Below are positions 58,118 through 60,385 of a stretch of DNA of 64,000 bases, piece after piece. The stretch comes from Exiguobacterium sp. s122 (GTDB taxonomy: Bacteria; Bacillota; Bacilli; Exiguobacteriales; Exiguobacteriaceae), in the NCBI RefSeq assembly GCF_018618475.1, contig NZ_JACSMD010000001.1, positions 1,426,001-1,490,000 of the forward strand, given 5' to 3'. The first letter of the stretch is position 1. The number at the start of each line of letters is the position of its first letter. Made by a program: the position numbers and the translations under genes. Under the pieces are notes generated by a model. The model did no database searches. It saw only the letters and a program-made list of their open reading frames with translations, and was not told the origin of the DNA.

Positions 58118-58501
58118 TCACAATACTGTATGTGCAATCTCTTCATAGAGTAGCTGGTCAACCTCGTTGCGCTCATTCAAGACGGCTACTTTTGGACGAT
58201 GCGTTTTCGCTTCTTCCGCTGTCATTTGACCGTACGCCATGATGATGACGACGTCACCGACTTGGAAATGGCGGGCAGCGGCACCGTTCAAACAAATGAC
58301 ACCCGAGCCCCGTTCACCTTTGATGACGTACGTCTCGATGCGGGCGCCATTATGGTTGTTCGTGATGTGGACGTGTTCATTTTCCATGATGCCGACCGCA
58401 TCCATCAAATCCTCATCGATAGTGATGGAGCCGACGTAATGCAAGTTCGCCTCCGTAACGGTCGCTTTGTGCAATTTCGCGTGCATAAATGTTCGAATCA
58501 T
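58118..58501 (-). CDS. panD: Aspartate 1-decarboxylase proenzyme
   Basis: 127 residues, the B. subtilis length. Makes beta-alanine for pantothenate. Self-cleavage at Gly-Ser in [16 protein letters not shown] creates the pyruvoyl group on Ser25. [14 protein letters not shown] is conserved. The ATG giving MIRTFMHAK is nine bases after GAGAGG; earlier in-frame starts overlap that sequence. Five bases after panC. Confidence 0.96.
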
Positions 58502-58506
58502 TCGAT

Positions 58507-59337
58507 TCATCCTCTCTTCCAAATCACGTTATCAATCAGGCGGGCCCGTTCGAACTGCACCGCCACAGCAATCAATAGTTCGGCCGATGCCGAGGTCGCC
58601 TCGGTCAACGTCGGATAGTCTTTCACTTCGACGTAGTCGATCGCGCTGTTCGGAATCGTGCGCAATCGGTCTTCAAGGCGTGCTTTCACTAGTTGAATCG
58701 TCTGCCCGTTTGCAAGCGCCTCGCGCGCGTCGGTCAAGGCGCGGTTGATTTCGCTCGCATCTGACTTCTCGGCGTCTGAGAGATAGACGTTACGAGACGA
58801 TTTCGCTAGGCCGGACGGTTCACGAATAATTGGACAGCGTCGAATCTCGACCGGGACGAAATAGTCCCGGACGTAACCTTCAATCAAGGCGACTTGTTGC
58901 GCATCTTTCAATCCGAAATAAGCGCGCGTTGGACGGACGAGATTAAACAGTTTCGACACAACGGTCAAGACGCCATCGAAATGACCGGGACGACTCGCGC
59001 CGCATAACACATCCGCACCCGTCCGTACCGTCACACGTGCCATGTCGAGCGGATACATCGTCTCCGTGTTCGGGTAGAACAAGACGTCGACACCCGCCTC
59101 ACGGGCAAGCGCTTCGTCCCGCTTAAAGTCACGCGGGTAACGGTCAAGGTCTTCGTTTGGTCCGAACTGGGTCGGGTTGACGAAGATGCTCATGACGACG
59201 AAATCGTTCTCGGCTTTGGCCGCCTCGACGAGACTAAGGTGCCCTTCATGTAAATAACCCATCGTTGGGACAAAACCGATTGTACCGACATCTGTCAACA
59301 ATGTTTGTAACGCGTTCGGGGTCGTGACAATCTTCAT
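58507..59337 (-). CDS. panC: Pantothenate synthetase
   Basis: 276 residues. Nucleotidyltransferase fold with [15 protein letters not shown] (HIGH-like), [27 protein letters not shown] and [15 protein letters not shown] (KMSKS-like). Joins pantoate and beta-alanine with ATP. The ATG overlaps the panB stop. Confidence 0.97.
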
Positions 59338-60170
59338 GCTTTGCCCCCATAGAGCGAATCAAGGAGCGTCTCATCCATCGTGAACGTATGGCGCTCGAGC
59401 GGGAACGACCCGTCCTTCGTTGACTCGACGTAATGACGGATTGCCGTCGTCGCCACTTCGTTTACATCCGCATACGCTTCGACGAACTTCGGCAGCCGGT
59501 CGACTCCGTATTTCAAGATGTCGTGATATACGAGCACTTGCCCGTCCACATCGGCACCGGCACCGATTCCGATGACCGGGATTGTAAGTGCTTCCGCAAT
59601 CTTCTTCGCGAGCTGGTGCGGCACACATTCCAACACGAGCATCTTCGCACCGACGCGCTCAGCCTCGAGACTATCGGCAATCAATTGCTCGGCATCTTCG
59701 AGTGACTTACCCTGTACTTTATAGCCTTCGAGCACGCCGACGGATTGCGGCGTCAAGCCGAGATGGGCAACACACGGCATGCCGACTTTCGTCAGCCGTT
59801 CGATCGTCTCGAGTACTTCGCCCGCTCCTTCGAGTTTGACAGCGTCGGCTTGGCCGTCTTGGAACAAGGATGCGGCCGCTTGGAGCGTCCGGTCAAAATC
59901 CCCGTGATAAGTCGCAAACGGCATATCGACAACGACGAACGTGTCACGTGCCCCGCGGCGTACCGCCTTGGCGTGATGAATCATGTCTGCCGTCGTTACC
60001 GGAATCGTCGAGTCATAGCCGAGCACGACCATCCCGAGTGAATCCCCGACCAAGATGATGTCGACACCAGCGGCCTCGGCGAGTTTTGCCGACGGATAGT
60101 CGTAGGCGGTCAACATGACCAATTTCTCTTCTTGTTTCATCTTTTTGAGTAGTGATGTCATCGTGTGCAT
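59334..60170 (-). CDS. panB: 3-methyl-2-oxobutanoate hydroxymethyltransferase
   Basis: 278 residues, TIM barrel. [28 protein letters not shown] and [11 protein letters not shown] carry the magnesium aspartates; [21 protein letters not shown] is conserved. First step of pantoate synthesis. GGAGGAG precedes the ATG giving [10 protein letters not shown]. First gene of panBCD behind a leader of about 180 bases. Confidence 0.97.
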
Positions 60171-60202
60171 AAGTTCTCCTCCTAAATGGGAGACAGGAAA
60201 GT

Positions 60203-60232
60203 AAAAGCGCCTTCTTATCGACAAGAAGGCGC
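60203..60232 (-). terminator. Terminator-like hairpin directly before panB
   Basis: GCGCCTTCTT (60207-60216) pairs perfectly with AAGAAGGCGC (60223-60232) around a six-base loop, followed on the minus strand by TTTTAC. It ends 33 bases before the panB start codon, inside the leader transcript, so it looks like the output switch of an attenuator. Confidence 0.65.
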
Positions 60233-60319
60233 ACGAAAGCAAACTCAATGATTGAGTGTCCTTCTGTCCCTGTCAAAATGATCAAGGCAGACAATAAAAT
60301 GTGAGTGACGGTCTGCAGT

Positions 60320-60349
60320 CCGGTACACTTCGCGAGCGATAGCGTCCGG
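60320..60349 (-). ncRNA. Candidate pan RNA motif hairpin in the panBCD leader
   Basis: On the minus strand the RNA folds as an outer CCGG/CCGG stem, a middle ACGCU/AGUGU stem, an inner UCG/CGA stem and a CUCG loop. One single adenosine is bulged on each side. A stem-loop with two conserved bulged adenosines upstream of panB is the description of the published pan motif in Firmicutes and other phyla. It lies at the very start of the predicted transcript and a terminator-like hairpin follows. A second tandem copy was not seen. Confidence 0.55.
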
Positions 60350-60356
60350 CACATTC

Positions 60357-60385
60357 ATTATAGACCACGCACCGCTTTCATTCAA
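60357..60385 (-). promoter_or_regulatory. SigA promoter of the panBCD operon
   Basis: Minus-strand TTGAAT (60380-60385), 17-base spacer, perfect TATAAT (60357-60362). It overlaps the birA stop codon. Transcription would start near 60350, at the foot of the candidate pan hairpin. Confidence 0.75.

Follow-up and report, generated by a model that had tools for sequence, protein, structure and literature searches.

A pan RNA leader before panBCD is a probable transcription attenuator that may sense a late product of the CoA pathway

Introduction

The panBCD genes of the window (the whole 64-kb stretch of DNA that was analysed) are preceded by a pan RNA that probably works as an attenuator sensing a late product of the CoA pathway, a reading for which we infer both the mechanism and the effector. 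Sequence comparison supports the membership of this leader in the pan family, its predicted promoter and terminator, two seemingly exclusive pairings that recur among relatives, and the set of genes placed under its control. In the model that we propose, the panBCD mRNA would carry pan at its 5′ end as a transcription attenuator. If CoA is in short supply, a switching strand at the 3′ end of pan would pair with the nascent 5′ arm of a terminator, and this antiterminator pairing would delay or block the terminator, so that panBCD would be transcribed. A plentiful effector would instead hold both pan hairpins folded and leave the 5′ arm free; the terminator would then form and transcription would stop. 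The effector would most likely be a compound made after pantothenate kinase, namely, CoA, a late precursor, or an acyl-CoA.

The pan motif RNA was described in 2010 by Weinberg et al. (PMC2864571), where its riboswitch status is marked with a question mark and where the simple, dimeric hairpins led to the suggestion of a motif bound by a dimeric protein. The pan paragraph of that paper names no antiterminator or effector, and the operons it gives are limited to those of panB, panC, and aspartate decarboxylase. Two transcriptome papers (PMC5670726 and PMC4342826) also list pan before panB, and according to a 2022 review (PMC10043782) CoA and its acyl derivatives have no validated riboswitch class. 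Among the papers listed from open-licence full texts, main articles only, we saw no report of an effector, an antiterminator, or kinase or transporter operons for pan. Likewise, open-licence full texts gave no match for a panBCD leader together with pantothenate in Bacillus subtilis, and neither a survey of premature terminators nor a review of riboswitches that were once orphans uses the words pan or pantothenate.

Results

The window locus is a genuine and ordinary member of the described pan family. The original prediction of a pan RNA, made from the letters alone, was upheld by the Rfam pan model (RF01749), which matched positions 60260 to 60348 on the minus strand at 53.9 bits against a gathering score of 36.2. 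The match spans the full model (positions 1 to 92 of 92; E-value of 1.4e-6 for 64 kb against 4227 families) and is the sole gathering-level Rfam match in the window. A search of the whole genome found a single pan copy, and pan occurs once in each of 38/38 genomes of the order, which represent two genera. The leader folds better than most shuffled versions (z = -3.05; 2/200 shuffles fold equally well). It lies on the minus strand between the end of birA (60382) and the panB start codon (ATG at 60170), in the position of a 5′ untranslated region, with a promoter-like site just upstream and three Pfam-confirmed genes downstream: panB (ketopantoate hydroxymethyltransferase, 59334 to 60170, PF02548, 344.9 bits), panC (pantoate-beta-alanine ligase, 58507 to 59337, PF02569, 336 bits), and panD (aspartate decarboxylase, 58118 to 58522 with an approximate start codon, PF02261, 175.4 bits), all on the minus strand. 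Upstream, Pfam recognised a poly(A)-polymerase-type gene (cca) in addition to birA. Among named PanB proteins, those from Exiguobacterium came out nearest, with 99% to E. alkaliphilum 12/1, in a search that may omit the window's own record. Like the motif set out in the pan paragraph of PMC2864571, the window locus has two tandem hairpins with two bulged A's each, before panB, panC, and panD.

A sigma-70/A-type promoter is predicted directly before the RNA (TTGAAT-17 nt-TATAAT, 60357 to 60385, minus strand, 10/12 consensus matches), and its -35 box overlaps the end of birA. This agrees with the suggestion that a promoter fires straight into the hairpin, and a -10 box (≥5/6 matches) is conserved 7 to 8 nt before pan in 38/38 loci of the family. 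Among the other pan genera, a -10 box lay no more than 24 nt upstream of pan in 93/122, compared with 12/122 control windows some 300 nt upstream (each genus, the window's own included, being represented once). Since the box stands close before pan in most genera, pan is usually near the start of the RNA.

The first pan hairpin (P1, 60321 to 60348, minus strand) is supported by the Rfam match and the predicted fold; it has 10 pairs and one bulged A on each strand, at 60340 and 60324. These are the two opposite bulges of the original prediction, which took P1 for the whole structure and missed a second hairpin (P2, 60264 to 60290, minus strand) placed by the Rfam match, with bulged A's at 60282 and 60267. 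The conserved tail AAGG (60260 to 60263, minus strand) follows P2 directly. In an alignment of 37 leaders of the order (36 of them distinct; L028 of the 38 was omitted), none of the four bulged-A columns varies, and the 3′ motif around the bulged A of P2 is retained in 114/124 genera.

Covariation of the stems within the order gave a mixed picture across measures. Among the 36 distinct leaders, 94.2% of P1 cells were paired, with changes on both sides at 3/10 pairs, while the outermost pair was broken in 13/36 leaders and one inner pair in 7/36. P2 was 100% paired and yet invariant, so it gives no covariation evidence. Over both hairpins, the number of cells changed on both sides (34, versus 13.2 in shuffles) and the covariation score each exceeded all 500 shuffles. 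In contrast, 140/500 shuffles were as high for the tally of doubly changed pairs (3, every one in P1), and 373/500 for that of further pair types (9 over both hairpins). Covariation among related leaders was seen to some extent in P1, and of the four measures over both hairpins two beat the shuffles and two did not. As a separate observation, an alternative helix, GCAGAC...GUCUGC (60316 to 60287, minus strand), would capture the 5′ strand of P2; this motif is found in 19/19 loci of the window's genus and 0/19 of the neighbouring genus.

Downstream of pan, the transcript contains the predicted elements of an attenuator. Its order is promoter, P1, P2, the AAGG tail, a small hairpin, the terminator, UUUU, the Shine-Dalgarno sequence, and panB. 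The predicted intrinsic terminator hairpin (GCGCCUUCUUGUC/GAUAAGAAGGCGC, 60207 to 60232, minus strand) is followed by UUUU at 60206 to 60203. All 10 pairs of its stem are perfect Watson-Crick pairs (the scan counted 11). This is the terminator-like stem that had been proposed before the panB ribosome-binding site, and it was confirmed at that position, ahead of the Shine-Dalgarno sequence AGGAGGAG (60176 to 60183, minus strand). The proposed 5′ strand of the antiterminator is the switching strand GACAGAAGG (60260 to 60268, minus strand), which is made up of the 3′ side of P2 and the tail. Its proposed partner, CCUUCUUGUC (60220 to 60229, minus strand), lies inside the 5′ arm of the terminator, and the small hairpin CUCAA-UCA-UUGAG (60244 to 60256, minus strand) would lie in the loop between them. 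By eye, this small hairpin was not seen in the second genus of the order. The duplex of GACAGAAGG with CCUUCUUGUC has an energy of -12.5 kcal/mol with one bulged U, a value equalled by 8/646 terminator-like hairpins with E ≤ -11 taken from the same genome (window plus 200 kb, on either strand and within genes as well) and by 7/564 such hairpins flanking the sampled loci in 123 genera.

Folding of the nascent and complete RNAs was consistent with a competition for this strand. Before the 3′ arm of the terminator is made, the last 9 nt of pan in the window RNA paired with the 5′ arm with a probability of 0.81 to 0.97, and the best nascent fold contained the antiterminator and retained the upper part of P2. 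At equilibrium, the full leader formed pan and the terminator and lacked the antiterminator; its energy was -51.3 kcal/mol, versus -40.1 with the 3′ arm of the terminator blocked. Since equilibrium favors the terminator, whatever control there is must be kinetic and exerted during RNA synthesis. Taken together, the sequence and the nascent folding make the antiterminator very probable, and its pairing and the folded pan would exclude each other. Since the tail and the 3′ side of P2 are needed by both structures, stabilizing pan should favor termination and folded pan should mean OFF, which agrees with feedback repression. We regard this direction of switching, and kinetic rather than equilibrium control, as presumptive. 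Purine and SAM-I riboswitches of the terminating type share an aptamer strand with the antiterminator in the same manner. The leader described here would resemble them in that a pan strand appears to compete for the 5′ arm of the terminator, with the folded sensor predicted to be OFF.

We asked how far the same arrangement extends over the family in a sample of 200 pan loci. Of these, 91 (L001-L091) were the best matches of searches, and 109 (L092-L200) were chosen by hand among the matches listed above the gathering score, a choice that favored new families and two-copy genomes. Two large, overlapping searches covered 398 genomes of the class (222 matched) and 398 of the phylum (152 matched). 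Statistics use one locus per genus unless stated otherwise, giving 124 genera, of which 58 belong to the class and 66 do not. A terminator-like hairpin, defined as one with an energy of ≤ -7 kcal/mol that is followed by a U run, lay no more than 180 nt after pan in 114/124 genera and 186/200 loci; none was found within 180 nt of pan in 10/124 genera.

It might be argued that the hairpin before panB merely limits read-through and that its complementarity to the pan tail is incidental. The hairpin alone is a good terminator and the full leader folds with both pan and terminator, as this view would expect. However, complementarity is far commoner in pan terminators than elsewhere: the motif CCTT[CT] was present in the 5′ arm of 84/114 pan terminators, against 24/646 control hairpins in the window's genome and 21/564 in the sampled genera (73/95 pan terminators when the energy cut of the controls was applied). 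Moreover, the complementarity of the terminator arm tracks changes of the pan tail between lineages, such that GACAG tails average -10.1 with other GACAG-type arms but -9.3 with arms of the GACGG type, while for GACGG tails the preference is reversed (-9.9 with GACGG-type arms, -9.2 with those of the GACAG type). We thus consider a coincidental complementarity very unlikely.

Other family-wide tests addressed the proposed antiterminator directly. The duplex of the pan tail with its own arm had a mean of -10.8 kcal/mol, compared with -6.8 and -6.3 for control arms, and the own arm ranked among the best 5% of controls in 48 or 53 of 114 genera, depending on the control set. When arms were permuted among tails, 0/5000 permutations were as good over 114 genera and 0/5000 over 74 families; with one locus per genus or per family, these tests leave kinship above the family level in place. 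Split by group, 129/5000 permutations were as good in the window's class (52 genera) and 0/5000 in the rest (62), so that the strength of the swap test inside the window's class is only moderate. Nascent pairing of the last 9 nt of pan had a mean probability of 0.41 over the 114 genera, versus 0.10 with control arms (0.51 versus 0.09 in the class; 0.32 versus 0.12 in the rest), and it exceeded 0.5 in 50/114 genera, compared with 177/2850 control draws. This probability was below 0.1 in 33/114 genera, which makes the antiterminator a family trend rather than a universal feature in the nascent-fold calculation. A plain duplex test of the pan tail against the next 120 nt, since superseded by the terminator-arm test, gave mean z values of -1.39 (58 genera) and -1.18 (66), while a control strand from hairpin 1 gave 0.21 and -0.07. 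The candidate attenuator, originally read from one hairpin and one terminator, thereby gains support from sequence, in that a terminator 5′ arm complementary to the 3′ half and tail of pan recurs in the sampled family.

The genes behind pan share one pathway. Within about 1.5 kb downstream (shorter at contig ends), BLAST with the window's own proteins as queries found PanB, PanC, or PanD homologues in 186/200 loci, and ten more carry a pantothenate kinase. A wider reference set matched 198/200 loci, a result that is in part circular since some proteins of the set came from pan loci. Most often the targets are panB-panC, or a gene for a DUF2520 protein (which we take to be ketopantoate-reductase-like) followed by panB or panC. 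Besides the ten kinase operons, which were recognised in longer downstream stretches, the remaining loci comprised one with an ECF S gene only (L181), two with a DUF2520/Rossmann oxidoreductase gene only, and L151. In four genera, the first gene after pan codes for a PanS-like transporter and lies beside panC. The names PanT and PanS were partly assigned here: Pfam gives only an ECF S component and the bile-acid-symporter family, and the NCBIfam PanS model scored 299.6 against a cut-off of 400. For B. subtilis, PMC11487621 gives PanU as the pantothenate ECF S component and CoaA and CoaX as kinases, functions similar to those of genes that follow pan in other lineages; neither "riboswitch" nor "RNA motif" is used in its main text.

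Each of four genomes of one genus holds two separate pan copies (L092-L099); in the loci read by eye, panB comes first after one copy and panC after the other. Such paired copies before panB and panC support a regulon. Elsewhere, one locus (L151/L228) combines a gathering-level pan and a matching terminator with no recognisable pathway gene; the 78-aa open reading frame that follows has no Pfam match, and this may be a free-standing or decayed copy.

The kinase operons are of several kinds. CoaX follows genes for a BioY-family protein and an ECF S component (L211, L212, and L213), an ECF S component alone (L217), BirA and an ECF S component (L223 and L224), or an amidohydrolase, BirA, and an ECF S component (L222), and CoaW follows an OPT transporter gene (L219, L220, and L221). 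The type III kinase was confirmed by PF03309 in 7/7 CoaX loci, which represent seven genera and six families. The type II kinase scored above the PF03630 cut-off in all three CoaW loci, which come from two genera of one family; L220, the sole locus scanned with NCBIfam, also passed the NF009842 cut-off. The remaining genes were identified with Pfam in some loci and BLAST in others. The kinase gene occupies the second, third, or fourth place after pan, so cotranscription is presumed. The amidohydrolase gene (L167/L222:4875-6257; PF07969/PF01979) is the first after pan in its locus. An OPT gene also follows pan in two other loci (L311 and L312), and OPT-family transporters behind pan are candidate importers of a CoA precursor.

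We searched 19 genomes for PanB and PanC; most have odd or unresolved downstream genes, and the window's genome was included. PanB was not found in 4/19 (G732, G712, G699, and G430) and PanC was not found in 6/19 (the same four plus G663 and G471), absences that rest on six genomes with a listed completeness of 95 to 100%. In the four genomes in which neither was found, the only pan detected precedes a transporter-kinase or BirA-transporter-kinase operon.

Discussion

These kinase operons bear most directly on what pan senses. An intermediate of biosynthesis (ketopantoate, pantoate, or beta-alanine) as the signal would suit the sampled pan loci, most of which precede panB, panC, panD, or a DUF2520 oxidoreductase gene, and would suit the PanS-like transporter gene found first, beside panC, in four genera. 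The retention of pan before transporter-kinase operons in the four genomes without detected PanB or PanC speaks against such a signal, which we judge highly improbable. If the RNA were a riboswitch whose ligand is pantothenate and not a later product, the dominance of synthesis genes in the sampled loci, with uptake genes present too, would fit; both routes lead to pantothenate. However, pan also heads type III and type II kinase operons, and turning a kinase OFF at high pantothenate would be poor feedback; a pantothenate riboswitch is thus unlikely.

The placement of pan before kinase operons, together with the four genomes without detectable PanB or PanC, points instead to a post-kinase effector, and a switch that silences synthesis, uptake, and the first committed step toward CoA would be sensible if it reads a later product. 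On this gene content, we consider it likely that the effector lies downstream of pantothenate kinase, with CoA or a late precursor as the leading candidates. The original prediction had offered only a pantothenate-pathway compound; the pathway genes agree with this, and the kinase operons would narrow the signal to post-kinase products.

Such a product could be sensed by the RNA itself or by a protein. The same attenuator could be worked by a dimeric RNA-binding protein that holds pan folded and reports CoA or pantothenate status. Tandem simple hairpins are what led the discoverers to their suggestion in the pan paragraph of PMC2864571, and the antiterminator and gene evidence fit a protein equally well. 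No candidate protein is known to us, however, and since the RNA serves lineages with differing downstream genes, such a protein would need to be conserved throughout these lineages. We view this alternative as a serious one that falls somewhat short of probable. It overlaps the attenuator model that we favor, in which the sensor may be RNA or protein, and for direct binding of the effector by the RNA we see the case as evenly balanced. Guanidine-II (mini-ykkC) RNAs are small tandem hairpins that resembled protein sites and proved to bind a small molecule. The pan RNA is likewise two small, simple tandem hairpins, although its sequence is unrelated and it conserves bulged A's where guanidine-II conserves loops. 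The most specific form of the hypothesis, that pan is a riboswitch for CoA or a CoA precursor whose bulged-A hairpins bind directly, feed an antiterminator from the aptamer's own 3′ strand, and shut off pantothenate synthesis, uptake of pantothenate or a precursor, and two unrelated kinds of pantothenate kinase, is one that we put forward tentatively and think less likely than not.

Beyond the published pan paragraph (PMC2864571), the present analysis adds the predicted pairing with the terminator and the operons with transporter and pantothenate-kinase genes. The presence of pan before kinase operons in genomes without detected PanB or PanC would narrow the signal to late products, and the leaders of these operons are small natural leaders for testing it. 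The defined switching strand, in turn, tells which bases to alter and what read-through to expect.

We also considered a second switch at the ribosome-binding site, where CUCC before the Shine-Dalgarno sequence could sequester that sequence or pair with the pan tail, and set it aside because family-wide support was weak. With one locus per genus, and only loci in which both a start codon and a terminator were found, pairing of the Shine-Dalgarno sequence was 0.65 versus 0.58 in shuffles for the class (9/51 at p ≤ 0.05) and 0.46 versus 0.42 for the rest (3/43); in the window's own locus it was below shuffles (0.62 versus 0.70). Pairing of the pan tail with the stretch after the terminator was -10.3 versus -9.1 in the class (5/51 at p ≤ 0.05) and -7.5 versus -7.4 outside it (4/43). 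Within the neighbouring genus (L020-L037 and L200), CCTTTTGTCCT follows the terminator in 18/19 leaders and can form 11 contiguous pairs with the pan tail, which suggests a lineage-specific second contact ahead of the ribosome-binding site. Finally, at the locus with only an ECF S gene (L181/L218), where no terminator was found, the tail GGGAGG was placed by eye as a possible Shine-Dalgarno sequence before that gene, whose start codon is ambiguous, an arrangement that hints at translational control.
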